From: Bacteroidales bacterium
Lineage (GTDB): Bacteria > Bacteroidota > Bacteroidia > Bacteroidales > Muribaculaceae
Assembly (NCBI GenBank): GCA_020859845.1
Contig: JAJBVL010000076.1
Span: 1-61,458, forward strand
DNA length: 61,458 nt
Direction of reading: 5' to 3'
Shown piece by piece: positions 1,984-24,347 of the stretch. The notes beneath the pieces were generated by a model that worked only from the letters and a program-made list of their open reading frames with translations, did not search any database and was not told the origin of the DNA. The translations under genes were made by a program, and so were the position numbers. Numbering within the stretch: position 1 is the first letter of the stretch; every line of letters starts with the position of its first letter.

Positions 1984-1997
1984 TCTCTATCCTCAAT

Positions 1998-5434: not shown

Positions 5435-5459
5435 AAACCAAAGCCAAAGTTTGCTTAAG

Positions 5460-6641: not shown

Positions 6642-8084
6642 ATGAACAATCTTAAAGTGTTGCAGCTCGGAAAGTTTCTCCCCGGTGGCGGGGGCATCGA
6701 GACTGTGGTCTACGACATAGCTCGCGGACTGGCACAACGCGGCATACGCTGCGACGTGATGGTGACGGTAGAAGGCGCGGCCGACTACGTGCGCCCCTAT
6801 TGTCACAATTGCGACATCATTGCCTGTCATGCGGTGGCCACGGCAGCCTCTACCATGATTTCAACATCAATGATTGCCACCCTTCATCGTATTTGTCATA
6901 ACTATGATATCATCCATGTCCACCACCCCAATCCCATGGCCACGCTGGCGCTTCTGCTCTCGGGCTATCGCGGGCGCGTAGTGCTCCACTGGCATAGCGA
7001 TATCATACGCCAACGCGTGGCTCTTGCATTTTTTGCTCCCCTTCAGCGCTGGCTCATCAATCGCGCCGACTTGATACTGGGCACATCAGAGCGATACATC
7101 AACGGGAGCCCATGGCTACGAGGCTCGCGCCAAAAGACCAAGGCCCTGCCGATTGGCATCAAGCAGATGGCCCACGACGAGCTTGGCGCATCGCGCCTTC
7201 GCCAGCGCTATGGCCATCGTAAAATCATCTTCTCGCTGGGGCGGCTCATCTACTACAAGGGCTATAAATATCTCATTGACGCTGCTGCGCTGCTCCCCGA
7301 CGACTATGTGGTGTTGATAGGAGGCGGAGGCCCTCTGCAGGGCGAACTCCAAGCGCAGATCGACCGTCTGGGACTCAACGGCAAGGTGGTGTTGCTAGGG
7401 CGCGTACCCGACTCTGATCTCCCCTCCTACTACACGGCCTGCACGCTCTACTGTATGAGTAGCTGCCAGAAGTCGGAGGCATTTGGAGTAGTGCTACTGG
7501 AAGCCATGTCGGTGGGACGTCCAATAGTGGCGACCGATATACCCCACTCGGGAGTGTCGTTTGTCAACGCCCATGGTGTGACGGGGCTCAACGTCGAGCC
7601 GGAGAATCCTCAAGCCCTGGCACAGGCTATTACCACCATCTGTCGCGACCCTGAGATGCATGCACGTTTCAGCCAAGCCACCCGCGAGCGTTTCCTCGGG
7701 ATGTTTACCGTGGATAAGATGATTGATGGTTGCTGTCGGCATTACGAGGAAGTACTGGCAGCCGACGAGGCCTGGGCTACGGCCGAGCCTCTGCCGCCGC
7801 TGGTGATGAGCCGTGGCAATCGCCATCTGTCGCTGCGCCAGATAGGAAGCGACCACGTGATGGTGGAGATAGCCGACGGCAATGTCAATATGACTCGAGT
7901 CTACACCTTCAACGAGACCGCAGCTTGGATATGGCAGCACATGGCCGCCGAGGGCCCCGACCTCCTGCGCTTGACTTCGTCGATGTGTGAAGTGTTTGCC
8001 GTAGAACCCGAAGAGGCTAGTCGCGACATTGAGCTCCAGATACAACAATGGACTCAGCTGGGCATCATGCCTACCTTATCTTGA
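6642..8084 (+). CDS. GT4 glycosyltransferase fused to a C-terminal PqqD-like domain
   Basis: A 480-residue two-part protein. Residues 1 to ~375 form a complete GT4 enzyme: FLPGGGGIETVVYDIARGL at the N-terminus, IIFSLGRLIYYKGYKYLI near residue 195, and a donor site around SEAFGVVLLEAMSVGRPIV. Residues ~385-480 form a PqqD-like (PF05402-type) winged-helix domain: a beta strand pair ending MTRVYTFNETAAWIWQHM, then a helical half finishing ELQIQQWTQLGIM. PqqD domains are RiPP recognition elements that bind leader peptides; a fusion to a glycosyltransferase is unusual. The stop codon overlaps the next gene's ATG (TGATG at 8082-8086), so it is coupled to the nucleotidyltransferase. Whether the domain binds a peptide here, or is a relic, is not known. 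Confidence 0.85.
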   Translation: MNNLKVLQLGKFLPGGGGIETVVYDIARGLAQRGIRCDVMVTVEGAADYVRPYCHNCDIIACHAVATAASTMISTSMIATLHRICHNYDIIHVHHPNPMATLALLLSGYRGRVVLHWHSDIIRQRVALAFFAPLQRWLINRADLILGTSERYINGSPWLRGSRQKTKALPIGIKQMAHDELGASRLRQRYGHRKIIFSLGRLIYYKGYKYLIDAAALLPDDYVVLIGGGGPLQGELQAQIDRLGLNGKVVLLGRVPDSDLPSYYTACTLYCMSSCQKSEAFGVVLLEAMSVGRPIVATDIPHSGVSFVNAHGVTGLNVEPENPQALAQAITTICRDPEMHARFSQATRERFLGMFTVDKMIDGCCRHYEEVLAADEAWATAEPLPPLVMSRGNRHLSLRQIGSDHVMVEIADGNVNMTRVYTFNETAAWIWQHMAAEGPDLLRLTSSMCEVFAVEPEEASRDIELQIQQWTQLGIMPTLS

Positions 8085-9169
8085 TGATCCCTACCTACTC
8101 CGCATTGTTCTGTCTGCTACGCTCGGCTCTGTGGGGCCAGCCTGTAGCGGAGCGCAAACTTGAGATGATTGACTCCCAAGGATGGGAGAGAGTGCTCACC
8201 GAGGCTCAGCGACAGACGGTGGGAGCCTTGGCCTTTGAGGCTGTGTGCCTGCTCCCTCGCGGGATGCACCCTCCTCAGCACATAATCAATCGATGGCTGG
8301 CAATCTCGGTGAAGACCGATCTCCACAACCAGCAGCTTCTCAGTCTGCTCCCCACCATTGCTGAACGTTGCGCTCAAGCTGACATAGATCCTATGATCTA
8401 CAAAGGACCCACTGTGGGGCAATATTACCCCAACCCTTTGACTCGCGAAAGTGGCGACATCGACCTTTGCGTAGCCAATCCCGTGAAGCTGCAACGTGCC
8501 GCCCATCTCCTTAGCGCAGGGGCTGGGTATAAGAAGCAGGCCGATGGAAGCCGACTTATTACCTGCCACGACATCGACATCGAGCTCCATGGCTCTATGT
8601 TTAGCCTGCTACCACGCCGTCAAGAGGAGGACCTTAGAAGGCTCCAAGAGGCCACCAATCCTTCAGTCTATGCCATACCCAACACGGCTCTTACCATGCG
8701 GACCCCCGAGCCAACAGTGGCTTTGGCTATGTATAATCTCCATATCTTAAAACATGCTGCTGGATTTGGTGTGGGGCTGCGTCAACTTTGCGACATGGCT
8801 ATGGCCTACCATCATCTACTGGACAAGGCAGATAGCCAATGGCTCCGCGATTTCTATACTCGCCATAGGCTCAGAAAGTGGACTTTACTCGTGGAGAGTA
8901 TGCTCTATCGACGATTAGGTCTACCAGCCTCAGCCACACTATTTCTGGCCGAGGAAGGTGTCTCGCCCCTCGACGATTCCTCCCTGCTACGCATCATTGT
9001 CGAGGGAGGAAACTTTGGTCTCCGAAGCCTCTCGGCTTCTAAAAACAAGCCACATCGCCATCGCTTGATGACCGTGGGGCGCAATCTATGGGCTCTCTAC
9101 CCTTATGCGCCCTTAAACGTCGGTCATATCAGTCGTTGCCTGATAAAGCGCTGGTTTAAAGGCGCGTAA
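8084..9169 (+). CDS. Nucleotidyltransferase family protein (NTP_transf_5 / PF14907-like)
   Basis: A protein of about 361 residues. The core motif is MIYKGPTVGQYYP followed by RESGDIDLCVANP at about residues 110-130. The DxD of GDID and the preceding G-x-x-x-x-x-Y fit the nucleotidyltransferase fold of the PF14907 group, often encoded beside PqqD and HPr-kinase-like genes in exopolysaccharide and lasso-peptide clusters. Later a conserved acidic/His element occurs in ITCHDIDIELHG. I choose ATG 8084, which overlaps the upstream stop; ATG 8048 is in frame but would force a 37-base overlap. The actual substrate (peptide, sugar or phosphate carrier) is not established for this family. It precedes the HprK-like gene by 17 bases. 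Confidence 0.82.
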   Translation: MIPTYSALFCLLRSALWGQPVAERKLEMIDSQGWERVLTEAQRQTVGALAFEAVCLLPRGMHPPQHIINRWLAISVKTDLHNQQLLSLLPTIAERCAQADIDPMIYKGPTVGQYYPNPLTRESGDIDLCVANPVKLQRAAHLLSAGAGYKKQADGSRLITCHDIDIELHGSMFSLLPRRQEEDLRRLQEATNPSVYAIPNTALTMRTPEPTVALAMYNLHILKHAAGFGVGLRQLCDMAMAYHHLLDKADSQWLRDFYTRHRLRKWTLLVESMLYRRLGLPASATLFLAEEGVSPLDDSSLLRIIVEGGNFGLRSLSASKNKPHRHRLMTVGRNLWALYPYAPLNVGHISRCLIKRWFKGA

Positions 9170-9186
9170 AGCACGGGGGTACCAGT

Positions 9187-10080
9187 ATGAATTATCGCAT
9201 AGGAGACTTTAATCTGCGTATATGGAGCTCCGACCATGCCATCGAGAGTGGCCTGGGACGGATGTTGCCTACATTTGAGCCTTTTATAGTCTCCACCGAG
9301 CCTTCAGAGCCCTCGCTCCTCGACCTTCAACTCTCCTGCCGCACCACCGACTCCATTATGCTCCCGACCGATGCAAGGCTCATCGAGTCGTCGGCCGATG
9401 ATTTAGGATATTTTAGGTTATCGGAGTCGGAACAGTCAGGCTATTGGGTGGAGCTACGCCATCGTGCCCACACCTCCACCCATTACCTGACTTTTGACCC
9501 ATTATGTCTGCATCCTCGAGTGTCGCTCAACCTCGCCGACCCTTTTGTGGGCAACGCTCTGAGTTCGCTGATACGCATCCTCTTCTCCCAAGCTATCCTC
9601 TACCATCAGGCAGTGGCCATTCATGCCTCTGCCGTGGTCTATCAAGGACGGGCCTACCTCTTTCTGGGCCGCAGCGGCACAGGCAAAAGCACCCACTCGC
9701 GCCTATGGCTTCATGCCCTACCTTCGGCCCACCTGCTCAACGACGACAACCCCCTGCTGCGCTTCGTAAATGGCGAGCTTTACGCCTATGGCTCGCCGTG
9801 GAGCGGCAAGACCTCTTGCCACCTCAACGAGCGTGCACGGGTGGGAGCTATCCTACGCCTGCGTCAAGCCTCCCACGACCACTACTGGCCGCTCACGGGA
9901 GTGGAAGCCTTTAAAGCCCTCCTCCCCTCATGCTTTGCCATCAGGCGCTCGGCTGCTCTGCAGGAGCTCCTCGCCTCCCATCTCTCACAGATAGTGGAGG
10001 CCGCCCCTATAGGCCTGCTCGACTGTAGGCCCGACCCGCAAGCAGCCCAGCTCTCAATTAGCAACCTAATCATATCCTAA
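9187..10080 (+). CDS. HPr-kinase-like P-loop protein (HprK-type serine kinase family)
   Basis: A 297-residue protein. The C-terminal half carries the HprK-like kinase core: HASAVVYQGRAYLFLG, the Walker A GRSGTGKST at residues 161-169, the acidic LLNDDNPLL, and the characteristic YGSPWSGKTSCHLNERA. The N-terminal ~130 residues are a variable beta-rich region without recognised domain. It lacks the full-length partner domain of true HPr kinase/phosphorylase, and no HPr gene is nearby. Relatives are encoded next to PqqD and nucleotidyltransferase genes; one, in a lasso-peptide cluster, phosphorylates the peptide's C-terminal serine. I therefore infer a kinase acting in a modification pathway together with the two upstream genes. 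The substrate is unknown. Confidence 0.82.
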   Translation: MNYRIGDFNLRIWSSDHAIESGLGRMLPTFEPFIVSTEPSEPSLLDLQLSCRTTDSIMLPTDARLIESSADDLGYFRLSESEQSGYWVELRHRAHTSTHYLTFDPLCLHPRVSLNLADPFVGNALSSLIRILFSQAILYHQAVAIHASAVVYQGRAYLFLGRSGTGKSTHSRLWLHALPSAHLLNDDNPLLRFVNGELYAYGSPWSGKTSCHLNERARVGAILRLRQASHDHYWPLTGVEAFKALLPSCFAIRRSAALQELLASHLSQIVEAAPIGLLDCRPDPQAAQLSISNLIIS

Positions 10081-10096
10081 ATATCTACAAATCGCA

Positions 10097-10891
10097 ATGA
10101 AAAAAGCAATCTATTTAACCTTGCTCGCTACCGCTCTACTGACTTCGGCGTGCAAAGGCAACAAAGACATCGCTTACCTTCAGAATATGAAGGAGGGTGT
10201 CAACTACCCCTTCGAGCCCAAGCGCGAGATTGTGCTCCAAGAAAACGACCTTCTTGCCATCACCGTCACCTGCCCCAAGCCTGAGTTGGCTCTACCCTTC
10301 AACTCGCGCAACGGCGCAGTGGCTATCACCGACCAAGGCAACCTGACGGCCGTATCCGATGGCAGCGAGACCCAGCGCGAGGGATATCGTATCGACCCCA
10401 ATGGCAACATCCACATGCCCATCCTCGGCAAGATCCACGCCGAGGGCATGTATATGGACCAACTCGAGGATGAGATACGCCAGCGCATCATCGATGGCGA
10501 TTATATCCTCGACCCACAAGTGTCGGTGGCGCTGCTCAACTTTAAGTACACTGTGCTGGGGGCTGTGGGCCATAGTGGTACATTCACGGCAGATGGCGAC
10601 CGTGTCACCCTGCTCGAAGCACTGGCAAAGGCTGGCGACATCACAGCCAACGGCGACCATAAGAAAGTGGCAGTGATACGCGAAGTAGATGGCAAGCGCC
10701 TTCGCATCGACCACGACATGCGCAATCTCAACACCCTCAATTCGCCCCACTTCTTTCTTCAACCCAACGACATAGTCTACGTGGAGCCAAAGTATAAGAA
10801 GAAGGACAACGAAGACCGCCGATACCAGTTTACGGCCACCTTCCTTAGCATCATCACAGCCATCTGCTCGGTCATCTGGGCCACAAAGTAA
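10097..10891 (+). CDS. Polysaccharide export lipoprotein, Wza/GumB family
   Basis: A 264-residue lipoprotein with signal peptide and lipobox LLTSAC (Cys19). It contains the Poly_export domain (QENDLLAITVTCPKPEL onward; later GYRIDPNGNIHMPILGKI) followed by an SLBB domain (KYTVLGAVGHSGTF ... LLEALAKAGDITANGD). A short hydrophobic C-terminal helix (FTATFLSIITAICSVIW) is typical of Bacteroidetes Wza homologues. It forms the outer-membrane pore through which the exopolysaccharide leaves the cell, together with the Wzc-type partner encoded 33 bases downstream. Confidence 0.93.
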   Translation: MKKAIYLTLLATALLTSACKGNKDIAYLQNMKEGVNYPFEPKREIVLQENDLLAITVTCPKPELALPFNSRNGAVAITDQGNLTAVSDGSETQREGYRIDPNGNIHMPILGKIHAEGMYMDQLEDEIRQRIIDGDYILDPQVSVALLNFKYTVLGAVGHSGTFTADGDRVTLLEALAKAGDITANGDHKKVAVIREVDGKRLRIDHDMRNLNTLNSPHFFLQPNDIVYVEPKYKKKDNEDRRYQFTATFLSIITAICSVIWATK

Positions 10892-10924
10892 AGCAAAAAA
10901 TCACCTCTAAATACTCTCTCAGCA

Positions 10925-13801
10925 ATGGTCAATTCACCCTATTCTAATCCTCAAGGACGGAGTCAGACCACAGGGCAGCAGAAGCTAAGTGTCACCGACC
11001 TGTGGTATTATCTCGTGGCCCACTGGTGGTGGTTTGTGATAGCCGTCGTGGTGTGTGGGTCGCTGGCGTGGCTCTACTGTGCCAGTTCGCCACGCATCTA
11101 TTATCGCTCAGCTACTGTGGTAATCAAGGATCCCGAGAACAAAAGCTACTCGGCAGGCCTCGACCGACTTGACAACTATATCAATCGTGTCAATGTGGCC
11201 AATGAAGTGCTTCAGTTTAAGTCGGCCACGCTGATGACCGAGGTTGTGAAGCGGCTCGACGCCAACATGTGCTATAGCGTCAAGGACACCCTGCGCCAGC
11301 GCGAGCTCTATTCCTCGTCGCCCATCAAAGCCACCATTGGAGGTATTCATCCGGAGCGGCCTCTGCGATTCAACGTCGTCCCTCTCGACTCTACCCACGT
11401 GGCTATTACCGACATCACGGGTGTAGCGCTCCAGGCCGATAAGCGCTACAAGCTACAGCTGGGCACTACTATGAAACTCGACGACGAGGGCCTGACCCTC
11501 ACCGTCAGCCCTACGCGTCATTATACGCCCCAGTGGCGTGGCCGCGAGATTGAGGTGAACCACCAGCCGCTGAGCGATATGGTGCTTTACTTCCAAGGCA
11601 ATATGTCGATACGCCAAGCCGAGGACGAGACCTCTATCTTGACAGTAGCCATGCAAGATGTGTCGGGCCAGAGGGCGGTGGATGTCATCAACACTCTCAT
11701 CGACGTGTACAACACCGAGGCTATCAACGACAAAAACCGTGTGGCCATCAACACAGGGCAGTTTATCGATGAGCGTATTCGCATCATCGAGAATGAACTG
11801 GGAGGGGTGGAGAGCGAGTTGCAGCAGTTTAAACGTCAGCATGGAATAGTCGACATCGGCTCCACTACCAGCCGCTATATGGCCGAGACGGAGCGATTTG
11901 ATATGCAGGAGATAGAGCATCAAGCTCAGCTTGAATGGGCGCGCTACGTCAAGAATTATCTGGAGAATCCTGTGGATGGCGACTATCTCATCCCCACACA
12001 GACGGGGCTTGCCGGAATGAACCTTGAGCAGCAGATAAGCCAATACAACTCGCTGATGCTCAAGCGTCAGCGCCTGAGCGAAGAGAGCGGAGCCTCCAAC
12101 CCCGTGCTCGAAGAGATGGACGACCATCTCCACTCGTCGCGCCAGGCCATCATCCGCTCCATCGACAATCTGATAGCCAACCTCAATCAGAAGCGCGGCA
12201 ACGCTGCTGAGCAGAAGAGCCGGTCGGTGGGGATGATAGCCAGCATTCCTGCCACCCAGCGCGAGATGCTCTCCATAGAGCGTCAGCAAAAGATAAAGGA
12301 GACGCTCTACATGTTTCTGCTCAACAAGCGCGAGGAGAATGCTCTCACACAGGCTATGGCCGACAACAATGCTCGCATGATCGACACCCCTAAAGGACCT
12401 CGTTTCCCCATCTTTCCCAAGCCCAAACGCACCATTGCCTTGGGCATTGTACTTGGAGTGGTGTTGACCGCTGGCATCTTGCTCTTCCGTCTCTTCATCG
12501 ACAACAAGGTAAGGAGCCGCAAGGACTTTGAAGGCCTGGTCAGTGTGCCTTTCCTGGGCGACATCCCCTTTGATAAGAAGACAGGCAAGAGTCCGGCTCT
12601 GCTCCAAAGCAGCGATGAGACCGACGACATGCTGGCCGAGGCCTTTCGTATGTTGCGCACCAACTTGATGTTTTTCAACAAGCCTGATCATCCCGTCAAG
12701 GTCATCACGCTGTCGTCGTTTAACGAAGGGGCTGGCAAGACCTTCCTCACAATCAATCTGGCTCGCGCTCTGGCCAGAGCCAATAAGCGAGTGCTCGTGA
12801 TTGACCTCGACGTGAGAAAAGGTACCTTGACGCGTTCACTTAGCGCTCGCCGTGTGGGTGTCACTAATTATATCATCGACCCCGAAACGTCGCTTCAGTC
12901 GATAGTGCAGACCATAGGCAACATCGACTTTATAGCCTCGGGGGCTGTGGCTCCCAACCCAGCCGAACTGCTGATGGACCAACGCCTCGACCTCCTGCTA
13001 CAGAAGCTGCGCGGCTCCTACGACTTTATCATCGCCGACAATGTGCCGGTAGGTGTGGTGGCCGACGCTACGATAGCCAACCGCATTGCCGACTTGACCC
13101 TCTTTGTGGTGCGCGTTGGTCGCTTCGACCGTCGTCAGATACCCGACATCGAGACGCTCTACCAAGAAGGCAAACTCAACAATATGGTGCTCGTGCTCAA
13201 CGGTGTGGATGTATCCCATCATTATGGCTATTATGGAGGGTATGGCTACTATGGCTCTTATGGCTACAGGGGCTATGGCTACGGATATGGCAAACGCTCC
13301 AAGAATATTGCCCAGAAGACTAAGGACCTCTCGGGGCGCCAGATTGCCATATGTCTGTTGGCACTCGTCGTGGGCTCTTCGCTCTTACTCTGGTCGTTCA
13401 TCCCCCGTCATGCCCCCCAGCAAGAAGACCCCGAAAAAACCATTGCCACAACAACAACTCCAACAACCGTAACAGCCCCAACAACTGTAACAACCCCAAC
13501 AACCATAACAACTTCAACAACCATAACACCCCCAACAACTGTAACAACTCCAAAAACCATAACAACTTCAACAACTGTAACACCCCCAACAACCATAACA
13601 ACCTCCTACTCGATTACTGGCCTTAAGACCACATGCACGCTTCAGCGTGGAGAATCGCTCAAGATACTCGCCGACCGCTACTATGGCGACAGCGAGCTGT
13701 GGCCCTACATAGCCCAATACAATCCGAAGATAAAGGACCCCAATGTAATCATGGCGGGTACTAAGATTCGCATTCCCAATCTCACTCCAGAAAACAATTA
13801 A
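10925..13801 (+). CDS. Wzc-type chain-length regulator / tyrosine autokinase with extra LysM domain
   Basis: A 958-residue protein. It starts with a Wzz domain and first membrane helix (WWFVIAVVVCGSLAWLYC), a long periplasmic coiled-coil part, and a second helix near residues 500-520. The cytoplasmic BY-kinase domain has Walker A in NEGAGKTF (Lys605), Walker A' in VLVIDLDVRKG and a tyrosine-rich cluster of 11 Tyr at residues 767-788. Typical Wzc ends there. This protein continues with a third membrane helix (807-826), a Thr/Pro repeat of eight hexapeptides (846-893) and a C-terminal LysM-like domain (GESLKILADRYYGD ... GTKIRIPN). The extension would put a peptidoglycan-binding module in the periplasm. 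It works with the upstream Wza to control polymer length and export by Tyr autophosphorylation. Confidence 0.93.
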   Translation: MVNSPYSNPQGRSQTTGQQKLSVTDLWYYLVAHWWWFVIAVVVCGSLAWLYCASSPRIYYRSATVVIKDPENKSYSAGLDRLDNYINRVNVANEVLQFKSATLMTEVVKRLDANMCYSVKDTLRQRELYSSSPIKATIGGIHPERPLRFNVVPLDSTHVAITDITGVALQADKRYKLQLGTTMKLDDEGLTLTVSPTRHYTPQWRGREIEVNHQPLSDMVLYFQGNMSIRQAEDETSILTVAMQDVSGQRAVDVINTLIDVYNTEAINDKNRVAINTGQFIDERIRIIENELGGVESELQQFKRQHGIVDIGSTTSRYMAETERFDMQEIEHQAQLEWARYVKNYLENPVDGDYLIPTQTGLAGMNLEQQISQYNSLMLKRQRLSEESGASNPVLEEMDDHLHSSRQAIIRSIDNLIANLNQKRGNAAEQKSRSVGMIASIPATQREMLSIERQQKIKETLYMFLLNKREENALTQAMADNNARMIDTPKGPRFPIFPKPKRTIALGIVLGVVLTAGILLFRLFIDNKVRSRKDFEGLVSVPFLGDIPFDKKTGKSPALLQSSDETDDMLAEAFRMLRTNLMFFNKPDHPVKVITLSSFNEGAGKTFLTINLARALARANKRVLVIDLDVRKGTLTRSLSARRVGVTNYIIDPETSLQSIVQTIGNIDFIASGAVAPNPAELLMDQRLDLLLQKLRGSYDFIIADNVPVGVVADATIANRIADLTLFVVRVGRFDRRQIPDIETLYQEGKLNNMVLVLNGVDVSHHYGYYGGYGYYGSYGYRGYGYGYGKRSKNIAQKTKDLSGRQIAICLLALVVGSSLLLWSFIPRHAPQQEDPEKTIATTTTPTTVTAPTTVTTPTTITTSTTITPPTTVTTPKTITTSTTVTPPTTITTSYSITGLKTTCTLQRGESLKILADRYYGDSELWPYIAQYNPKIKDPNVIMAGTKIRIPNLTPENN
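13460..13603 (+). repeat. Tandem 18-bp coding repeat (8 units) in the Wzc linker
   Basis: Eight imperfect 18-base units rich in ACA/ACC codons encode a hexapeptide series of the form (P/S)-T-T-(V/I)-T-(T/A/P). The array forms the linker between the third membrane helix and the LysM domain. Units differ by a few bases but keep exact 18-base spacing, so copy number could change by slippage without breaking the frame. Confidence 0.85.
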
Positions 13802-13830
13802 ATCAATCATTATAATCCCTACTAAAGCAA

Positions 13831-14019
13831 ATGGAAACGACTAAGAAACCCTATGTGGCGCCTCTCACCACTGTCTCTGATGTAGAACTGGAAGGTAGCT
13901 TCTGTGTATCCCACGTTGAACCCGGCATGGAGATCAACGAACGTCAACGCCATATCGAGATTGAACAGCAACCCGATGGTGGCACTATGGACTTTTCTAA
14001 GGGCTCGTGGGATGAATAA
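13831..14019 (+). CDS. 62-residue peptide of unknown function, precursor-like
   Basis: A short gene starting METTKKPYVAPLTTV and ending TMDFSKGSWDE. The N-terminal part K-K-x-Y-x-x-P followed by an acidic/aliphatic stretch ending GSFCVS resembles many small Bacteroidales proteins found beside surface-protein genes. The remainder is polar and highly charged, with one Cys (residue 25) and no signal peptide. It lies 29 bases after the kinase gene and 48 bases before the fimbrillin-like lipoprotein gene. With PqqD, HprK-like, S26 peptidase and ABC exporter genes in the same locus it is a candidate modified or secreted peptide, the first half acting as leader. That role is inference; the start codon, size and context are what is seen. 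Confidence 0.7.
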   Translation: METTKKPYVAPLTTVSDVELEGSFCVSHVEPGMEINERQRHIEIEQQPDGGTMDFSKGSWDE

Positions 14020-14067
14020 TCCCCTCGCGCCGTCAATCGCTTTTCTGCAACTCTCACATTTCGAGCT

Positions 14068-16065: not shown

Positions 16066-16080
16066 TCAAAATACAGCAAA

Positions 16081-17370
16081 ATGCGAAAAACTATCATATC
16101 TCTGGCGGCTATGACTATTGCTCTGGCCGCTGCGGCTCAAGACCTGCGAGAGCCTGCCAACAAGGTGGAGTATGAACCCGACGCTCTCCTCTTCAAGAAA
16201 GTGGAAGACTATGAGGTGAGCGACAACAACCACCAAGTGATTACCAATAAGTGGAAGGCCAACTGGTTTGTGCTGGCCAACGCTGGCGTCAACGCCTTTT
16301 GGGGCGACAAGACCGATGGCAGCTTCGGCTCGAGACTGTCGCCACAGTTCAACTTTGGCTTCGGTAAATGGTTTGTACCCGCCTTTGGCGTGAAATTACA
16401 AATGACGGGGTTCAGATCACAAGCAGATAAGTATGTACAGGGGCAATTCACCCATGGTAGCGCTACTTACTATGACAAGGAGGGACGGCCCTATTGGAAA
16501 GAGCGCCATAAATGGTGGGACATCAACCTCAACCTGATGCTCAACATCACGCGCCTTATCTATGGTTTTGAAGGCTACAATAGCTCTCACCTTAAAAATC
16601 AATTGATATTTTCCCTTGGTATCGGTGCTGTTCATAGTTATGATTTAGGAGGACCGGGTAAGCAGAACGAATGGGCTGGCCACATCGAACTTCAATATAG
16701 CCGTTTTCTCAACAAGAGCAAAGCCCTTTCAATCGACCTCACAGCTCGCTGTATGCTCTATGACACATGGTTTGACCAGGTGTTATATCATCAGCAGTTT
16801 GACGTCAACGCTTCTATCAATATCGGTTTCACCTACTACTTCAAGGAGCGTGGATGGAACAAAACCTCCAAGCGCTACACCTACTACTATCAGGACAATA
16901 TGGACCAAGTCAACGCCCTGCGCTTGCAGGTGGACAGCCTCCGCCATCAGCAGCCCGACACGGTCTATATTAAGGGTGAGGGCAGTCGAGTAGTGACGTT
17001 CCCCTATCTCGTCAACTTCGTAATTGACCGCGTGGAGGTGGCCAACCGCGAGCGTGTCAACCTCCGGTGGGTTGCCGAGATGATGAAAGAAACCCCCGAC
17101 CAGAAATATGTCATCAGCGGTTATGCCGACAAGTATACTGGCTCGCCGCAGCGCAATATGTGGCTCGCCATCCATCGCGCCGAGAATGTCTACAAGGTGT
17201 TGACGGAGGAATTTGGAGTACCTAAAGATCAGCTACTGCTTGCCGACTATGGCGGCGTGGATAATATGTTCTACGATGACAAGCAAGTGTCGCGCTCGGC
17301 CATCATCACGCGCTATGAAGGACAGCCGCTCAACACCTTCAAGGGTCAAGAACCCGACTATAAAGAGTGA
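16081..17370 (+). CDS. OmpA-family outer-membrane protein
   Basis: A 429-residue protein with a cleavable signal peptide (cleavage likely after AAAAAQ). Residues ~30-270 are rich in alternating aromatic/hydrophobic strands (e.g. WFVLANAGVNAFWGD) and form a predicted beta-barrel. A short coiled linker (QVDSLRHQQPD) leads to an OmpA-C peptidoglycan-binding domain from ~310: NFVIDRVEVANRERVNL, then ISGYADKYTGSP and the conserved LAIHRAENV, with the Asp and Arg used to bind diaminopimelate. It lies between two surface lipoproteins and may anchor them to the cell wall. A small AT-richer patch occurs at ~16560-16660. Confidence 0.85.
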   Translation: MRKTIISLAAMTIALAAAAQDLREPANKVEYEPDALLFKKVEDYEVSDNNHQVITNKWKANWFVLANAGVNAFWGDKTDGSFGSRLSPQFNFGFGKWFVPAFGVKLQMTGFRSQADKYVQGQFTHGSATYYDKEGRPYWKERHKWWDINLNLMLNITRLIYGFEGYNSSHLKNQLIFSLGIGAVHSYDLGGPGKQNEWAGHIELQYSRFLNKSKALSIDLTARCMLYDTWFDQVLYHQQFDVNASINIGFTYYFKERGWNKTSKRYTYYYQDNMDQVNALRLQVDSLRHQQPDTVYIKGEGSRVVTFPYLVNFVIDRVEVANRERVNLRWVAEMMKETPDQKYVISGYADKYTGSPQRNMWLAIHRAENVYKVLTEEFGVPKDQLLLADYGGVDNMFYDDKQVSRSAIITRYEGQPLNTFKGQEPDYKE

Positions 17371-17402
17371 AAAGACTATTAGTGAATAATGAAAATCGCA
17401 TT

Positions 17403-20400
17403 ATGAAACTTAAATATATACCTTTCTTATTTTTGTTGCTGCTGGGCGCAGGATGTACCGATGATGACATTCGTCTCCCGGGCACTGAGACCGGCGCCTC
17501 TGCGAGCCTCGCAGGAAGCTCGCGTAGCAGCGATGGCCTCACCGCCGAGATACAAAGCGACGACCAGACCTACTATGTGGCCAACTGCCGTGTGCCACTC
17601 GTAGGCGCTGGCCGCATGATCAACCGTCAAAACAACACCCTGCTGGCTGTAGTCAAACTGGATGGAGCAGAAAACAACATCACCGACCTCGACCTCAGCA
17701 ACACCTTCTCCTTAAACAATGTGGCAGCAGCCAATTTTCCCTATAATGAGATTGTGTCGATCATTGACGTTGCCCATACTTACAAGGGTGGTCAGCGTGC
17801 AGGTTTTGTGGTCAAGACTCAAAGTTCGGGTGTGTTATCGGCTGATGTACTCTCTTTATGGTCGCTAGTGACACTCCTTGATGGCAAGCAGCAAGAATCG
17901 GTGTCTTTTAGCGAAGCCACAAGCGTGCTCGATCTTGGTGTGGGAAATATTAGCAGCTCTTCCTCCGATGCTGCACAATCCTTTGTCGTGGAAGGCTTAT
18001 TTTCTCAGCCTTTCAATGAGATTAAGCTTTGTATGGGAGGGGTTACTGCAACTGTGGCCCAAAAGCTTGAAATCTACTATGCTTTCGTAGGCGAAAACCC
18101 CATGATTCCTGCCGTTAACGACGGCAACGAGTACTTCAACAACAATTGTTCAGGTAATTACAAGTCGCTTGTTGACGAAGACCTCGAAAACGGTCCTGCT
18201 ATCGCTATAATCAATCTCTACAATCGCTACTACGTGAAATTTGGTCGCGAAGTGCCAGCAGGTACGGAAGTGGGGTTTTACATTACTAGTGGCTCCGTTC
18301 TCGAACTGGGTTTAGGCTCTACCATAAAGGTTACCACCTACGCTGATGATGATCGTGATGTACAACAAGAGTACACTCAGATAACGAAAGTGCTGGAATT
18401 GTCTCTTATAGGTGAAAAAGGGGCTACTTATGGATTTACTACCTCAAAGGCAGCCCGCACCGTGATGATAGAATTTGAAGGAGTATCCATAGACGTAGGA
18501 GTGACGCAAATTCACTATGCTTACATACGCGAGAAGACCACGATTGACCCATCATCTTTTTTTGCTCTGACCGATGCTGTGGTCTACAACCCCGGCTATC
18601 ATCTCCTGCAGCCAACTTCATTCGATGAAAATCTGGTGATAAATAGCTACAGCTATAAACTTGTGAGCGGACCAGGAGCTGCCGAGATTATCCAGAATGC
18701 CAACGGCGACATATTGTGGAATATGAACGTGCCAGGCAAGTATGTGGTGAAATGCACCTTCTCTTATACCTATACCGACTCTACTGGCGAGGTCTTCACT
18801 GGCACTGCCGAGCAGTATGCTACCATCACACGTAAGGTGTACCCAGAATATACCGAATGCAACGACCCACTGGTAAATACAAGCGCTGACGACAATACGT
18901 ACACCGCTTACACTCCCGAGGGAGGATTTGCTGGAATAAAAATTGGCGGAGGAAGCACCACCGGTGAACTCAGCTATATTGTTGACTCTAATACCGATAA
19001 CTATCTCCAAATCAATCAAGCTGTTAATATACAATTAGCCTCCAATGTAGCTCTGATAGGAGTGAAGAAAAATGAAGGCTCCATCAATTCCAACAACAAA
19101 AAAGTAAAAGTAGGTTTTGTAGTGGGTGCCAATAAATCTATCCTTGATGGCGACGTGTTGCAATTTCTGCGTATACGCTTGACGATGCGCGATGGAACAG
19201 TGATTGACAAAGGTGTGGTAGACGGTGCCGTGGATGTAAACCTAATCAATACCGACAATCAGCCTCGCGTAATGCTCGGGATTGAGACTGAAGCTGAATT
19301 CCAATGTATCGAATTGTATTCAAGCGGTGTTCTAAATCTCCAGATTGCTGATGCCTTCCAAATCTACTACGCTTTTATAGAAGACTGCAATACGTGTCAG
19401 AATGGTGGTAGCATGGAGTGTATGCAGATGATTTCAAGCTCCAACTACGGAGCCGAGCCATCTGTAAGCGCTGTGAGTGGTATCAACCTCTTTGAACACT
19501 TTTCGGGTCTGAGCAATCTTGTTGATGGAGATATGAACACAGTGGCTTCGCTTACTGAAGTGTTGACCGTGGTAGAAGCTCTTAAGATCACTATCACTTT
19601 TGACAACTACATCCAGCCCTACCAAGAGACAGGTTTCGTAATCCAAAACGAGGTGGACCTTTTGGATGTGATAGGGACATGGAGCGTCAAGGCCTATGAT
19701 ACTAATAAAGAGGGCGATGACAAGGAGGTGACCTACGCTACCGATGCCAACAATAAAACATCGCTTTCGGTGGCCGAAGTAAAACTGGGAAACACTACCA
19801 ACACCTACCTTTCGGTAATTCCAACCCAAAAGTTTAATCAACTTGTGCTTACCGCAGGCAAAGGACTCAAGGTTCCCACACATCTACAAGTGGTGGGCGC
19901 TTACTTCCGCCCTGATTATAACGATGATGGAGTGATGGATTGCATCACAGATGATCCTATCATCACTGTCAACGCAATGAACATATCCTCAACCGACATC
20001 TGTAGCGGCGACGATGCCCCTACCTTTACCCTTACAGGCGGCAATGCAGAGCAAGAATATATCCTTGATTTTACACCTTACGACGGTCCTGGCCTGACAA
20101 AATTCCCTGGTTCAGGCAACTCCTACTATGTGATGGTATCGGGCGAATTGACCAACGGTCAGTGTGACCTTCTCAACACCACCAACAATAATAATGCCTA
20201 CTCTACGCTGAAAGAGTATCTGGCTGCTATGCCCTGCGGTGTCTACTACATCACCCTGCAGACGTGGGACACCAACGGCAACCGTGTTGACCTTCTCAAC
20301 AAAGTGGTGACCCTCACAATCCACCCCACGCAGACCACTTGGCTCGGCCTTACCGACCGCGACTGGAACGTATGGACCAACTGGGACAACGGTGTGCCTT

Positions 20401-21899
20401 GGGAGTGCACCGACGTGGTGATTCCTCGTCCTGCTCAAATTAAGAATATCACACAAGGATATCCCGAACTGGTGGCCGATGGCGATTATCGGTGCGACGA
20501 CATCCACTTTGAGGTGGGGGGAGAGATGATCGGCAGCGAATATCTGCGCCATGGTGGACTGGTGTTTGTTGACATGGAGCTGAAATACAATGAATATCAA
20601 CTGGTGTCGGCTCCCTTGCAGAGCATGGTGACAGGCGATATGTTTATACCATCAGCCACTACTATCCCTCTCAGCGGTGAAGTTACCTCAGATGCTTTGG
20701 CCTGGAACACCTATCTATGGTCGTCATATGCCAACTACTTCACCCTCCCCACCAAGGACAATTATACTGAGCAGCGTGTGGCTCCAGCCATCTTCCAGCG
20801 TTTTTGGGCTCAGGCCGTGACCAACGAATTTATGAACTCGCGTGCAACTGATGCTTCGATAGGCGCTCTACTTGACCAGACCGACTGGTCGCGCTCGTTC
20901 AATCACGTGGAGAATGAATATGCCGAAGCACAAGGATTTGCCGTGAAACTGGCAGCTTCAACTGATGGAAAATACAATTCTTCAAAAGCAGATCAGACGG
21001 AGACTTTCCGATTCCCCAAGGACTTCGACAAATACAATTATTATAGTGGATTCAACAAGGGCCAAGTAGGAACCAATAAGAATGTCGGCTCTCATCGCTC
21101 GAAGCAGGGCCTGTTCTGGGCCGACTACAATGAGCTGGAAGGAAAGACTCAGTCACTCTTTGACTTGCGCCGCTACACATCTTCGGGGTCGACTTTCGTC
21201 TTTGGTAATCCTTTCCTATGCCATATAGATATCATGACGTTCTTAGAGGAAAATACCAACGTCAATAGTCTCTCGCGCTATGACGGCGCCAAGTATGTAT
21301 CATATCAGATTGACGAAGATGGACGCCTTAACGTGAGTGCTTCCAGCATGACCCTTTCACTTAATCCCATGGAGGCCGTACTGCTATCAGTCACGCCTAA
21401 CCCAGACGACAATGAGGAAGCCACCGGTAAATATTCCTATGTAAAGGTGACTACCAATATGTTGTCTCAAACCTTTGGCGCGCTCCAGGCATCGACTCAG
21501 AGCGCTGACGATGTCTATATCTCTGCGCTTGTGCCAACAAGCAGCCGCAGCGATGCTCGGGCTGAATGTCTTGTGACGCTTGGCGGTAGCGACAGCTATA
21601 TTGACAGCGAGGACGCGCGGGTTATTCTTGCCTCGGAGGATGAGCAGCCTGTGGTGGTCTACACAGTGGCTGATGGTCGCGGAGTGAGCATCAACCGCGT
21701 CGGTGGCGAGCAGCGTATAGCCATTGGGCTTCAGATGGCCAGAAAGGCCGATGTGGAGATGCGAGCCACGGCAGGCGCTAAGTGGGCTGGATGGTTGATT
21801 CTCGACACTCTCACTGGCGAGCGCTATCCTCTGGGGCAGACTTTTACCCTCAAGGAAGTTGACAGCTCAGCTAATCGCTTCTTCTTGGTCAACGACTAA
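17403..21899 (+). CDS. Giant surface lipoprotein with four diverged beta-rich repeats
   Basis: A 1498-residue lipoprotein. I set the start at ATG 17403, which gives MKLKYIPFLFLLLLGAGC with lipidated Cys18; the GTG at 17367 overlaps the upstream gene and would bury the signal. TDDDI directly after the Cys fits the Bacteroidetes lipoprotein export signal for surface display. Four related modules of about 150-170 residues can be read, ending with IYYAFVGENP, IHYAYIREKT, IYYAFIEDCN and VVGAYFRPDY (near 18090, 18530, 19380 and 19910). An Ig/PKD-like segment lies between modules two and three. The last third contains DWNVWTNWDNGVPW and beta-rich adhesin-like sequence. I recognise no enzyme motif; an adhesive or structural surface role is inferred. 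Confidence 0.8.
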   Translation: MKLKYIPFLFLLLLGAGCTDDDIRLPGTETGASASLAGSSRSSDGLTAEIQSDDQTYYVANCRVPLVGAGRMINRQNNTLLAVVKLDGAENNITDLDLSNTFSLNNVAAANFPYNEIVSIIDVAHTYKGGQRAGFVVKTQSSGVLSADVLSLWSLVTLLDGKQQESVSFSEATSVLDLGVGNISSSSSDAAQSFVVEGLFSQPFNEIKLCMGGVTATVAQKLEIYYAFVGENPMIPAVNDGNEYFNNNCSGNYKSLVDEDLENGPAIAIINLYNRYYVKFGREVPAGTEVGFYITSGSVLELGLGSTIKVTTYADDDRDVQQEYTQITKVLELSLIGEKGATYGFTTSKAARTVMIEFEGVSIDVGVTQIHYAYIREKTTIDPSSFFALTDAVVYNPGYHLLQPTSFDENLVINSYSYKLVSGPGAAEIIQNANGDILWNMNVPGKYVVKCTFSYTYTDSTGEVFTGTAEQYATITRKVYPEYTECNDPLVNTSADDNTYTAYTPEGGFAGIKIGGGSTTGELSYIVDSNTDNYLQINQAVNIQLASNVALIGVKKNEGSINSNNKKVKVGFVVGANKSILDGDVLQFLRIRLTMRDGTVIDKGVVDGAVDVNLINTDNQPRVMLGIETEAEFQCIELYSSGVLNLQIADAFQIYYAFIEDCNTCQNGGSMECMQMISSSNYGAEPSVSAVSGINLFEHFSGLSNLVDGDMNTVASLTEVLTVVEALKITITFDNYIQPYQETGFVIQNEVDLLDVIGTWSVKAYDTNKEGDDKEVTYATDANNKTSLSVAEVKLGNTTNTYLSVIPTQKFNQLVLTAGKGLKVPTHLQVVGAYFRPDYNDDGVMDCITDDPIITVNAMNISSTDICSGDDAPTFTLTGGNAEQEYILDFTPYDGPGLTKFPGSGNSYYVMVSGELTNGQCDLLNTTNNNNAYSTLKEYLAAMPCGVYYITLQTWDTNGNRVDLLNKVVTLTIHPTQTTWLGLTDRDWNVWTNWDNGVPWECTDVVIPRPAQIKNITQGYPELVADGDYRCDDIHFEVGGEMIGSEYLRHGGLVFVDMELKYNEYQLVSAPLQSMVTGDMFIPSATTIPLSGEVTSDALAWNTYLWSSYANYFTLPTKDNYTEQRVAPAIFQRFWAQAVTNEFMNSRATDASIGALLDQTDWSRSFNHVENEYAEAQGFAVKLAASTDGKYNSSKADQTETFRFPKDFDKYNYYSGFNKGQVGTNKNVGSHRSKQGLFWADYNELEGKTQSLFDLRRYTSSGSTFVFGNPFLCHIDIMTFLEENTNVNSLSRYDGAKYVSYQIDEDGRLNVSASSMTLSLNPMEAVLLSVTPNPDDNEEATGKYSYVKVTTNMLSQTFGALQASTQSADDVYISALVPTSSRSDARAECLVTLGGSDSYIDSEDARVILASEDEQPVVVYTVADGRGVSINRVGGEQRIAIGLQMARKADVEMRATAGAKWAGWLILDTLTGERYPLGQTFTLKEVDSSANRFFLVND

Positions 21900-21911
21900 T
21901 CATGGCCATTG

Positions 21912-22346
21912 ATGGCTACTGTCAGCTATTACTCCACGGATTTCTTGCACGACGCTGCTCGGCTGCTTGCCCAGGGGCTGGCGGTCACCATTCCAGTGAA
22001 AGGGAGCAGCATGAAGCCTTTCTTACGAGAAGCCACCGATACAGTCACTATCAAGCGTCGTCAAGGAGTGAGCCGTGGAGATATAGTCTTGGCCCTATAC
22101 CAAGGGCGCTTTGTGCTCCACCGTGTATGCCATTGTGAAGGCTCAAGGTTGACACTTCGGGGCGATCATGTGCTCGATCAAGGGGAGATAGTTGACAGGG
22201 GAGATGTTATGGGTACGGCTGTGGCGCGTCAGCGCCATGGCCGCACTCTTTCTCTGATTTCTACTCGCTATCGTCTGCTATCGAGGCTATGGATATGGGC
22301 ACTCCCCTTGCGTCGCCTCCTCCACTCGTTTCGTCATGCTCGATAA
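21912..22346 (+). CDS. S24/S26-family peptidase-like protein (signal-peptidase type, Ser/His)
   Basis: A 144-residue protein. The motif VKGSSMKPFL holds the catalytic Ser (S-x-M-x-P box), and RGDIVLALYQGRFVLHRVC holds the second box, where His replaces the Lys of bacterial type I signal peptidases. That Ser/His arrangement is typical of the S26B (ER/archaeal/SipW-like) group and of small S24/S26 proteins encoded near PqqD and ABC-exporter genes. RLTLRGDHVLDQGE matches the third box. There is no clear N-terminal membrane anchor; the C-terminus is hydrophobic and basic. ATG 21912 is chosen over TTG 21909 and it overlaps the ABC gene by 11 bases. Cleavage of an exported peptide or lipoprotein is inferred. 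Confidence 0.75.
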   Translation: MATVSYYSTDFLHDAARLLAQGLAVTIPVKGSSMKPFLREATDTVTIKRRQGVSRGDIVLALYQGRFVLHRVCHCEGSRLTLRGDHVLDQGEIVDRGDVMGTAVARQRHGRTLSLISTRYRLLSRLWIWALPLRRLLHSFRHAR

Positions 22347-23967
22347 TCTTATATGGATATGGCGTCGGGCCGCTGGATGCAAGGGCCGAGTGGCTCTTAA
22401 TGCTCTATGTGGCGCGCTGCGCATTGCTGCCTCCTTGACGCTGGTATGGGTGAGCAAGCATCTGATAGATGTGGCTACAGGCGTTGCAGTCGGTTCGCTA
22501 TGGCTTTGGGCTATCGTGATGGTGGGATTGCTTGTGGCTCAGCTTCTGCTTGGCGTTGCCAGCACGATGGTGGAGAATCATAGCGAGCTAAGGGTGCGCA
22601 CTCGTCTGCGCGAAAGCATTTTCGGCCACCTGCTCCATCTCCAGTGGCAAGGACGCGGAGGGCTCCATAGCGCAGAGGCTGCTTTGCGTCTCAATGAGGA
22701 TGTGGCCACGGTGAGCAGCGCTGCTTGCCGCGACTGCCCCTATATCATCATCACTTGCCTTCAACTATTGGGCGCTCTTGTCTTCCTGCTTTGGCTCGAT
22801 TGGAGATTGGCGGTGGCTCTACTGGTAGTGATGCCCGTGGCTCTGGCGCTGAGCAAGGTGATGGTGAGTCACATGCGACGCCTCACGTCGTCGCTGCGTA
22901 GGCAGGAGAGCCAAGTCCATCGCTTTACGCAAGAGAGCGTGCAGCGCCGCTCGCTTATCTTGGCCTTGGAGATGGCTCCAGCAGCACAAGAACGGCTTGC
23001 ATCGCTACTCCATCGCTGGAGGATGATCGTCTTGAAACGCTGTAGACTGTCTGCTTGGTCGGCTGTCGCGGTGCAGGCTGGATTCGGGGCTGGTTACACT
23101 TTGGCTTTCTTGTGGGGCGTGTGGGGCCTCTCTAATGCCTCTATCACTTTTGGCACTGTAGCTGCCTTCCTGCAACTGGTGGGGTTGGTGCAGCGGCCTT
23201 CGGTGGAACTGAGCCGACAACTGCCTGCCGTGGTACGCACCTCTACGGCCGTTGATCGTCTGCGTGAACTGCTTGGGATGGCTCGAGAAGATGAGGCCCC
23301 TGTCTCCTCGGAAAATCCTTTGGCTCCACCAGTGGGAGTTAAGTTGGAGGGGGTAAGCGTGGCGTATCCTGATGGCGAGGAGCCAGTGCTGCAGAATCTC
23401 TCTCTATCCTTCCCCCCTGGCTCCACAACAGCTATTTTGGGTCCGACGGGTGCTGGAAAGAGCACAATATTCCGTCTTATTCTGGGTCTAATTATGCCCG
23501 CAGAAGGGAGAGTAGTTTTCTATAATGCCCAAGGGGAAGTAGTGGCTGGGGCGGCCTGTCGACGCTACATCTCCTACGTCCCGCAGGGCAACAGTCTTTT
23601 TAACGCCACTCTGAGGCAAAATCTGCTTATGGGCAATCCCAAAGCCACCCAAGAAGAGATGATGTGGGCGCTGCGTATGGCCGAGGCTCAATTTGTAATG
23701 GCTGAGTTGCCACAAGGGCTTGACACTGTGTGTGGCGAGCAAAGCCTTGGCCTGAGCGAGGGGCAAGCTCAGCGTATTGCCATAGCGCGTGGACTGCTAA
23801 GACGTGGCTGTATTCTTTTGCTCGACGAGCCTACGGCAGCTCTTGACTCAGCTACGAGCCAGCGGCTGCTTGCCAACCTTCGCTCCCTACCCTCTACTTA
23901 CACGGTGATAATTATAACTCATAATTCTGAAGTGGCGCAAGTGTGCCAACATAAATATTGCTTATGA
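22336..23967 (+). CDS. ABC exporter, fused membrane and ATPase domains
   Basis: A 543-residue half-transporter. The N-terminal ~300 residues carry six membrane helices of the ABC type I exporter fold (e.g. LWLWAIVMVGLLVAQLLL). The ATPase domain has Walker A GPTGAGKST, a Q-loop region in SYVPQGNSLF, signature LSEGQAQRIAIARG, Walker B ILLLDEPTAALDS and H-loop IIITHN. There is no N-terminal C39 peptidase domain, so any substrate processing would need a separate protease; the overlapping S26-like gene upstream could serve. It probably works as a homodimer exporting a peptide or lipid-linked product. The start overlaps the peptidase gene by 11 bases, and the DUF1573 start overlaps its stop. Confidence 0.92.
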   Translation: MLDNLIWIWRRAAGCKGRVALNALCGALRIAASLTLVWVSKHLIDVATGVAVGSLWLWAIVMVGLLVAQLLLGVASTMVENHSELRVRTRLRESIFGHLLHLQWQGRGGLHSAEAALRLNEDVATVSSAACRDCPYIIITCLQLLGALVFLLWLDWRLAVALLVVMPVALALSKVMVSHMRRLTSSLRRQESQVHRFTQESVQRRSLILALEMAPAAQERLASLLHRWRMIVLKRCRLSAWSAVAVQAGFGAGYTLAFLWGVWGLSNASITFGTVAAFLQLVGLVQRPSVELSRQLPAVVRTSTAVDRLRELLGMAREDEAPVSSENPLAPPVGVKLEGVSVAYPDGEEPVLQNLSLSFPPGSTTAILGPTGAGKSTIFRLILGLIMPAEGRVVFYNAQGEVVAGAACRRYISYVPQGNSLFNATLRQNLLMGNPKATQEEMMWALRMAEAQFVMAELPQGLDTVCGEQSLGLSEGQAQRIAIARGLLRRGCILLLDEPTAALDSATSQRLLANLRSLPSTYTVIIITHNSEVAQVCQHKYCL

Positions 23968-24347
23968 AGCAAAGTATATATCTGTTTTTCATGGCTCTTC
24001 TGGTAGGGTTTGTTGCTACCGCTCAGTCAAAAATGGAGCTGAAAGATAACAACATATCGCTCGGCACAATCCAAATGACCGACACCGCGCTCCACTCGGC
24101 CACATTTCGGTTTACCAACGTAGGCAATAAGCCCCTTGTGATAGTGAGAGTAAAAACTTCATGTGGGTGCACGGTGGCGCAATTTTCCAAAGAACCAATT
24201 CGACCTGGCGCTGAGGGGACAATCGAAGTCACCTATGACCATCGCAATCGCCCCTTAGGCTCATTCCTTAAGACCATCAACGTCTACACCAACGACTCCA
24301 CTCGCCTCTACCGCCTCTTTATCTCGGGCGAGACAGTGGACCACTAA
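23964..24347 (+). CDS. DUF1573 periplasmic protein
   Basis: A 127-residue protein with a signal peptide (MKQSIYLFFMALLVGFVATAQ) and a single DUF1573 domain. The domain signature is visible in RFTNVGNKPLVIVRVKTSCGC and the following FSKEPIRPGAEG, an Ig-like/ASH-type beta sandwich with a C-G-C metal- or redox-like motif. The gene's ATG overlaps the ABC transporter's stop (ATGA at 23964-23967), which argues for a shared function with the exporter. DUF1573 proteins are abundant in Bacteroidetes and their biochemical role is unknown. A TTG six bases upstream is possible but unlikely. Confidence 0.88.
   Translation: MKQSIYLFFMALLVGFVATAQSKMELKDNNISLGTIQMTDTALHSATFRFTNVGNKPLVIVRVKTSCGCTVAQFSKEPIRPGAEGTIEVTYDHRNRPLGSFLKTINVYTNDSTRLYRLFISGETVDH

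Follow-up and report, generated by a model that had tools for sequence, protein, structure and literature searches.

The stretch of DNA analyzed here, referred to as the window, is one entire contig of 61,458 nucleotides (JAJBVL010000076.1, assembly GCA_020859845.1) from a Bacteroidales bacterium of the Muribaculaceae. Nineteen genes are tiled from 225 to 25367, all on the + strand and separated by gaps of −50 to +48 bp. Within this run, genes for exopolysaccharide (EPS) assembly and export are interlaced with a gene for a 62-residue peptide and with genes for the proteins that would modify, process and export it as a ribosomally synthesized and post-translationally modified peptide (RiPP). 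One of these proteins carries a RiPP recognition element (RRE). The features are as follows.

225–6611, + strand: upstream polysaccharide assembly genes, namely a sugar-binding glycosyltransferase, two GT2, a Wzy-like protein and two GT4 (Pfam)
6642–8084, + strand: GT4 glycosyltransferase (PF00534, 3e-39) with a C-terminal PqqD-type RRE at about residues 406–475 (PF05402, 5e-9)
8048–9169, + strand: NTP_transf_5 nucleotidyltransferase (PF14907, 3e-30), with a putative LppN/PsmN-like role
9187–10080, + strand: HprK-like kinase with a fold of the PEPCK/HprK superfamily (predicted structure)
10097–10891, + strand: Wza outer-membrane export protein (PF02563, 6e-18)
10925–13801, + strand: Wzc chain-length regulator/kinase (TIGR01007, 2e-42, above the cut-off) with a C-terminal LysM extension
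13831–14019, + strand: 62-residue precursor peptide (peptide profile)
14068–16065, + strand: fimbrillin-type lipoprotein with a C-terminal domain resembling phosphatidylinositol-specific phospholipase C (PI-PLC) but lacking the catalytic His (Foldseek, weak model)
16081–17370, + strand: OmpA-family protein (PF00691, 5e-13)
17367–21899, + strand: probable surface lipoprotein of 1510 residues, assigned to no family in the Pfam scan
21909–22346, + strand: predicted S26B-type peptidase, with a likely ATG start at 21912 (PF00717, 6e-6, and profile alignment)
22336–23967, + strand: ABC exporter without a peptidase domain of its own (PF00664, PF00005)
23964–24347, + strand: DUF1573 protein (PF07610, 1.6e-29), whose start overlaps the ABC stop

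Pfam and NCBIfam searches of the window proteins agree with the gene list drawn up earlier, and they matched the parts of what the sequence-only reading had described as an EPS locus interlaced with a peptide-modification and export gene set. The Wzy_C match among the upstream genes (4e-4) is under its Pfam cut-off.

Conservation was assessed in genomes (labeled G###, with G000 being that of the window) and in individual loci (labeled L###). When 61 genomes were searched with single sequences, 7 matched for the kinase and 4 of these 7 for the S26 peptidase, with no S26 match outside them. Profiles run against 294 Bacteroidales genomes detected the kinase in 46 and S26 likewise in 46, with 42 genomes having both (Fisher p 1.6e-41). 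Three of the 294, namely G000, G044 and G055, also contributed rows to profiles A2 (the S26 alignment) and A3. Of the 46 kinase genomes, 38 have kinase and S26 on the same strand within 15 kb of each other, 31 have them within 500 bp, and 44 have an RRE (p 1e-33). A kinase-profile scan of named genomes kept 80 loci, by title nearly all from Bacteroidota. These and 8 others make up the 88 sequences compared below: 25 EPS loci, 60 kinase loci with no Wzc gene close by (“non-EPS”), and three (L064, L093 and L096) without a kinase frame in the tiling of open reading frames (ORFs). The non-EPS loci include S26 in 48 cases and an RRE in 41; S26 counts for the 88 sequences are lower bounds because the ORF tiling missed the S26 genes of L031 and L036, which were found by separate search. 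NTP_transf_5 is present in 21 of the 25 EPS loci versus 12 of the 60 others (p 4.6e-8). Rows left out of alignments were L024 from A3, L027, L029, L040, L049 and L082 (of 30) from A8, and 39 of 62 RREs from A5; the S26 row of L023 was picked by adjacency, and the RRE row of L039 looks spurious.

Gene order is also recurrent. Bacteroidales EPS loci such as L018 and L028 run GT4, priming transferase, RRE, nucleotidyltransferase, kinase, Wza, Wzc, peptide, lipoprotein, OmpA, S26 and ABC, and the Sphingobacterium loci L047, L062 and L073 together with L071 run S26, RRE, nucleotidyltransferase, ABC, kinase, Wza and Wzc. On a quick kinase tree, with supports from SH-aLRT alone, EPS-linked kinases group together (3 label changes versus a shuffled mean of 23.1), and all 27 of them fall within one 31-row group (SH-aLRT 90). 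S26 is present in 15 of the 16 EPS-locus genomes examined. It overlaps or adjoins the EPS locus in L022 (on the opposite strand), L031, L036 (Bacteroides mediterraneensis), L040 and L041, and S26 and ABC come after OmpA in L018, L028, L031, L036 and L041. The association of peptide, S26 and ABC genes with the trio of PqqD-type, kinase and nucleotidyltransferase genes, on which the sequence-only reading had staked its proposal, thus recurs in other genomes. DUF1573 lies outside the conserved set despite its overlap with the ABC stop, and its presence looks incidental.

Two side observations concern the sampled loci. L026, on a contig labeled uncultured Rickettsiales, is a Bacteroides-like EPS/kinase locus that was probably mis-binned. 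Prevotella-type kinase–S26–RRE cassettes (L003, L046, L058, L061, L075 and others) are found within a recurrent gene neighborhood with upstream genes of about 490, 290 and 140–190 residues; they contain no in-locus peptide, and their substrate is presumably encoded elsewhere.

Among solved structures, the closest relative of the RRE family profile is the lasso RRE TfuB1 (8e-8), and a search of the PDB with one single RRE found no relative up to an E value of 1. The RRE is discrete in L018, L022, L028 and others and fused to GT4 in the window; of the matches from the genome search with the RRE, only those in G000 (486 residues) and G071 (457 residues) are in frames of more than 200 residues. 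The kinase-like protein is under all curated cut-offs, and its assignment rests on a predicted structure (pLDDT, the model confidence score, 94.7) with a PEPCK fold. The best 50 structure matches are PEPCK chains, with no HPr kinase chain among the matches listed; the PEPCK-fold superfamily includes HPr kinase as well. Against TIGR04352 (HprK-related kinase A), which covers the kinase/PqqD systems of EPS loci, the window protein scores 18 bits, the cut-off being 200. Those systems likewise bring a kinase, PqqD and a nucleotidyltransferase together at EPS loci; the window differs in this score and in the addition of S26, an ABC exporter and a precursor peptide. The NTP_transf_5 protein found no relative in the PDB up to an E value of 0.1.

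For the peptidase, candidate catalytic residues are Ser34, His71 and Asp86 (numbered from 21909). Across relatives, with the window included, Ser is kept in 57/57, His in 57/57 and Asp in 56/57, and the best solved relatives of the S26 profile are SEC11C (3.6e-7) and SEC11A. Judged by these residues and relatives, the window protein is of the S26B (SipW/Sec11-like) type. An S26 peptidase is fused in front of the ABC exporter in L024, L139, L143 and L144, at the position where bacteriocin exporters have a C39 peptidase. These fusions tie cleavage to export.

In the window peptide, YxxP occupies residues 8–11 (13852–13863). The leader of the family is approximately YxxPx6VxLExG[IF][MCA], followed by Ser. 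The leader is predicted to end after C25, with putative small residues at −3 and −1, and the candidate phospho-Ser is S27 (13909–13911). Applied to the 14,683 small ORFs in the 88 sequences, an iterated peptide profile gave 22 matches with E values of at most 1.9e-11, the next match being at 3.4. In leave-one-out searches 20 of the 22 were below 0.01, and the best letter-shuffled ORF reached 4.1. For a further 23 scattered copies, retention required YxxP plus two or more of four additional positions (table from L108–L135, leaving out L113, L115, L119, L120 and L123). The combined 45 peptides are conserved partly by construction, because selection used YxxP and further positions. The Tyr (position 0) and Pro (position 3) are present in 45/45, partly by selection, just as YxxP is invariant in 23 aligned peptides picked partly by YxxP. 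Glu at position 13 from the Tyr is found in 40/45, a Ser at Y+18 to Y+20 in 40/45 versus 25% of downstream background triplets, and an aromatic residue within the final five positions in 42/45. For all four peptide pairs with a computable synonymous rate (dS), the nonsynonymous rate (dN) is lower.

A peptide gene is contained in 16 of the 21 EPS loci that extend at least 1.5 kb beyond Wzc, and L140 and L142 each have a YxxP peptide gene flanked by the RRE and kinase genes. A peptide match was obtained in 17 of the 294 genomes, 14 of which also encode the kinase (p 3.8e-10). In six genomes there are 3 to 8 peptide matches, some of them weak and most located away from the cassette. The EPS locus of Sphingobacterium humi (L062) encodes two different precursor peptides (14354–14542 and 16656–16844).

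The genes next to the peptide are themselves recurrent. By regular expressions, the gene after the peptide is lipoprotein-like in 17/22 cases versus 168/1151 other genes, and fimbrillin-like in 14/22 versus 83/1151. For the scattered copies, 11/23 have a lipoprotein-like gene directly downstream and 8/23 come after a gene for cargo of the type IX secretion system (T9SS) kind, recognized by NCBIfam in 2, by pattern in 2 and by eye in 4. The neighboring lipoprotein of the window, its lipobox assigned by pattern, matched the fimbrillins 3ufi (2.3e-9), 3t2l and 3sy6 and the PI-PLC structures 1aod (1e-4) and 3v16 in Foldseek searches, on a weak model (pLDDT 51.9). It does not reach Pfam Mfa_like_1, which is above the cut-off in L040 and L065. 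It resembles the Bacteroidales fimbrillins (Mfa/FimA) in this structure match and differs from them in the extra PI-PLC-like domain without catalytic His and in being paired with a precursor-peptide gene. A PLC-like motif is present in 10 of 15 peptide-adjacent lipoproteins; a His at the position of the catalytic His of PI-PLC is found in 0/10, with L018 having a His one residue later. Two of the five neighbors without the motif (L030, L049) are cut, or nearly so, by the locus end.

The linear polyphosphorylated peptide (LPP) pathway described by Popov et al. 2026 from lpp of Paenibacillus alginolyticus, and partly reconstituted, offers the closest comparison. Its parts are an RRE, an HprK-like kinase, an NTP transferase, a SipW-like peptidase (S29, H68, D93), an MsbA-like exporter and a leader with YxxP, the motif that lasso- and LPP-type RREs bind. 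Several phosphates are carried on Ser3 of the core, clusters often lie in capsule loci, and LPPs are stated to be restricted to Bacillota (PMC13381572); the string “bacteroid” does not occur in that paper. The window matches in its RRE, kinase, NTP transferase, S26B/SipW-like peptidase with Ser, His and Asp, and MsbA-like ABC exporter, with the kinase identified by fold and not by a curated cut-off. It further matches in a YxxP precursor with Ser just after the leader, in the capsule-type setting, and in lacking its own cyclase. What the analysis shows is the gene content and its co-conservation, the leader motif and the catalytic residues; we consider it likely that the locus is a Bacteroidota LPP-like phosphopeptide RiPP pathway built into an exopolysaccharide operon. 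The features new to this form are the phylum, the leader motif, the RRE–glycosyltransferase fusion, precursors beside genes for fimbrillin-type lipoproteins or T9SS-type cargo, precursors in trans, and the S26–ABC fusions of relatives. Among open-licence PMC papers we recognized none that describes the gene set in Bacteroidota. A survey of RiPPs in 1,136 Bacteroidales genomes focused, in its available text, on radical SAM enzymes, YcaO and peptidase-containing transporters (PMC10352776), and the available portions of PMC12710340 and PMC7533575 do not describe the set.

Because the published LPP pathway has the same parts, RRE recognition, phosphorylation, S26-type cleavage and ABC export are likely steps, and this much of the model put forward by the sequence-only reading is supported; DUF1573, which it had included, does not belong to the conserved set. 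By analogy, the C-terminal RRE of the glycosyltransferase would bind the YxxP leader of the 62-residue peptide, the HprK-like kinase would phosphorylate the Ser just after the leader, presumably S27, the S26B peptidase would remove the leader, probably after residue 25, and the ABC exporter would move the core peptide out. Adding a sugar or nucleotide to the phosphate is the probable role of the nucleotidyltransferase. Its homologue PsmN is reported to place a hexose onto the phospho-Ser of pseudomycoidin, a host enzyme not being excluded (review PMC9266682), and deletion of lppN gave no detectable change in the LPP study (PMC13381572). RRE binding, phosphorylation, cleavage and hexose addition are thus taken from published work on LPP and pseudomycoidin. 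The preference of the nucleotidyltransferase for EPS loci and the fusion of the RRE to a glycosyltransferase point to sugar chemistry on the peptide. For the window peptide, phosphorylation, sugar transfer and a link to the polysaccharide are inferred, and the product may act at the cell surface with the fimbrillin-type lipoprotein of the adjoining gene, alongside the exopolysaccharide. A more specific version, which we regard as rather unlikely, is that the mature phosphopeptide links the exopolysaccharide to the cell surface as a peptide-anchored capsule: the GT4–RRE would bring glycan chemistry, the nucleotidyltransferase would put a sugar on phospho-Ser, the inactive PLC-like barrel would dock the sugar-phosphate, and scattered precursors would serve other surface adhesins and T9SS cargo likewise.

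Several results weigh against or qualify the LPP-like interpretation. The RRE is discrete in LPP and fused to GT4 in the window, and the leader differs from the YxxPxVLxHQxIxFET of LPP, the full YxxPxVLxHQxIxFETxxS being absent; because of these two differences, we describe the locus as a variant of LPP and not as a strict member. Other differences are the host phylum, the adjoining surface-protein genes, the scattered precursors, and the S26–ABC fusions in relatives. LppB matches the RRE family profile weakly (0.16). The only S26 adjoins another kinase away from the EPS locus in 5/16 EPS-locus genomes (L029, L032, L033, L034, L038); S26 was found on DNA unconnected to that locus in another 5/16 (L043, where it lies near OmpA and an ABC gene, and L030, L035, L039 and L049), and was not found in L027 (1/16). 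The 22-peptide set was grown from 18 ORFs picked by a pattern that included YxxP together with S, D or T close to it; L065 (0.028) and L021 (0.016) were above 0.01 in leave-one-out searches, the window Ser lies at Y+19 whereas in-locus peptides favor Y+20, and dS was not computable in 3 of the 7 pairs tried. No peptide was found in L033, L035, L047, L071 and L073 (5/21) despite at least 1.5 kb beyond Wzc, and only 5/60 non-EPS kinase loci have an in-locus peptide. Peptide matches without the kinase occur in G122 and G195 (neither with a clear YxxP peptide) and in G312 (89% complete).

These points bear unequally on other explanations. A secreted bacteriocin or signal, with the adjacent surface protein acting as receptor or conferring immunity and the EPS context being incidental, is rather unlikely, though several features favor it: the RiPP-like layout with a dedicated exporter resembles bacteriocin clusters, precursors are scattered with up to 8 matches in one genome, and EPS-free cassettes exist. 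The recurrent surface-protein neighbors (17/22 lipoprotein-like), the clustering of EPS-linked kinases on the tree and the aromatic C-terminal end common to 42/45 cores argue the other way, while each is compatible with a secreted role. That kinase, RRE and nucleotidyltransferase instead tailor the polysaccharide or an EPS protein, with the peptide gene as a small passenger of regulatory or structural function, seems quite unlikely to us. The trio does stand between the glycosyltransferase and Wza/Wzc genes in EPS loci, the RRE is joined to GT4 in the window, and the five EPS loci with room for a peptide but lacking one would be expected. Against this stand the 60 loci lacking EPS genes in the vicinity (48 of them with S26 and 41 with RRE), the YxxP leader of the type bound by lasso- and LPP-type RREs (PMC13381572), the co-occurrence of peptide and kinase across genomes, and the peptide genes inside the cassettes of L140 and L142.

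It is very unlikely that S26, ABC and DUF1573 are a separate export unit merely downstream of surface-protein genes. In the window, 11.8 kb separates them from the kinase, and S26 adjoins a different kinase in the five genomes named above, but the spacing of at most 500 bp in 31 of the 46 kinase genomes, the placement of S26 and ABC after OmpA in five EPS loci, and the occurrence of all five genes in a row in Sphingobacterium-type EPS loci speak for one system. A lasso peptide pathway with a cyclase acting in trans can be considered highly improbable. It would account for the YxxP leader, the lasso-type RRE and the pairing of kinase with nucleotidyltransferase known from the paeninodin and pseudomycoidin systems (PadeK, PsmK, PsmN), in which these enzymes act on Ser and a Y/WxxP leader is read by an RRE (PMC9266682). 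However, the lasso B2 protease, which the sequence-only reading had reported missing, was indeed not found (PF13471, 0/6 genomes searched; the control rang in 2/14), the S26B peptidase takes its place, and no macrolactam cyclase was found by Pfam among the scanned locus genes, no genome-wide cyclase search having been made.

The remaining features can be dealt with briefly. Past its Tyr-rich tail, the window Wzc has a probable membrane segment (by eye), a Thr/Pro-coding 18/54-bp repeat (13453–13603) and the C-terminal LysM; other Wzc proteins compared are 775–842 residues long, most ending near the Tyr-rich tail. A relative of the 1510-residue surface protein comes after OmpA in L032. The window is without the priming sugar transferase of L018 and L022, and the peptide was considered as a substitute lipid primer; this was rejected, as G000 has two homologues of the transferase on other contigs. 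Promoter-like sites (33 versus 18.0 expected) and terminator-like sites (17 versus 14.6 expected) were not used, and an Rfam scan of the window at gathering thresholds gave no match.

With an LPP-like pathway as the favored interpretation, a RiPP family called Bacillota-restricted in 2026 has a functional counterpart across Bacteroidota, including gut genera, with the kinase in 46 of 294 Bacteroidales genomes. Precursor genes beside identifiable surface-protein genes supply concrete candidates for the role of such peptides. The EPS-locus form makes testable both the action of NTP_transf_5 on a phosphopeptide and the reason why these clusters recur in capsule loci. If one cassette serves the scattered precursors, commensals would have a dispersed peptide-modification system.

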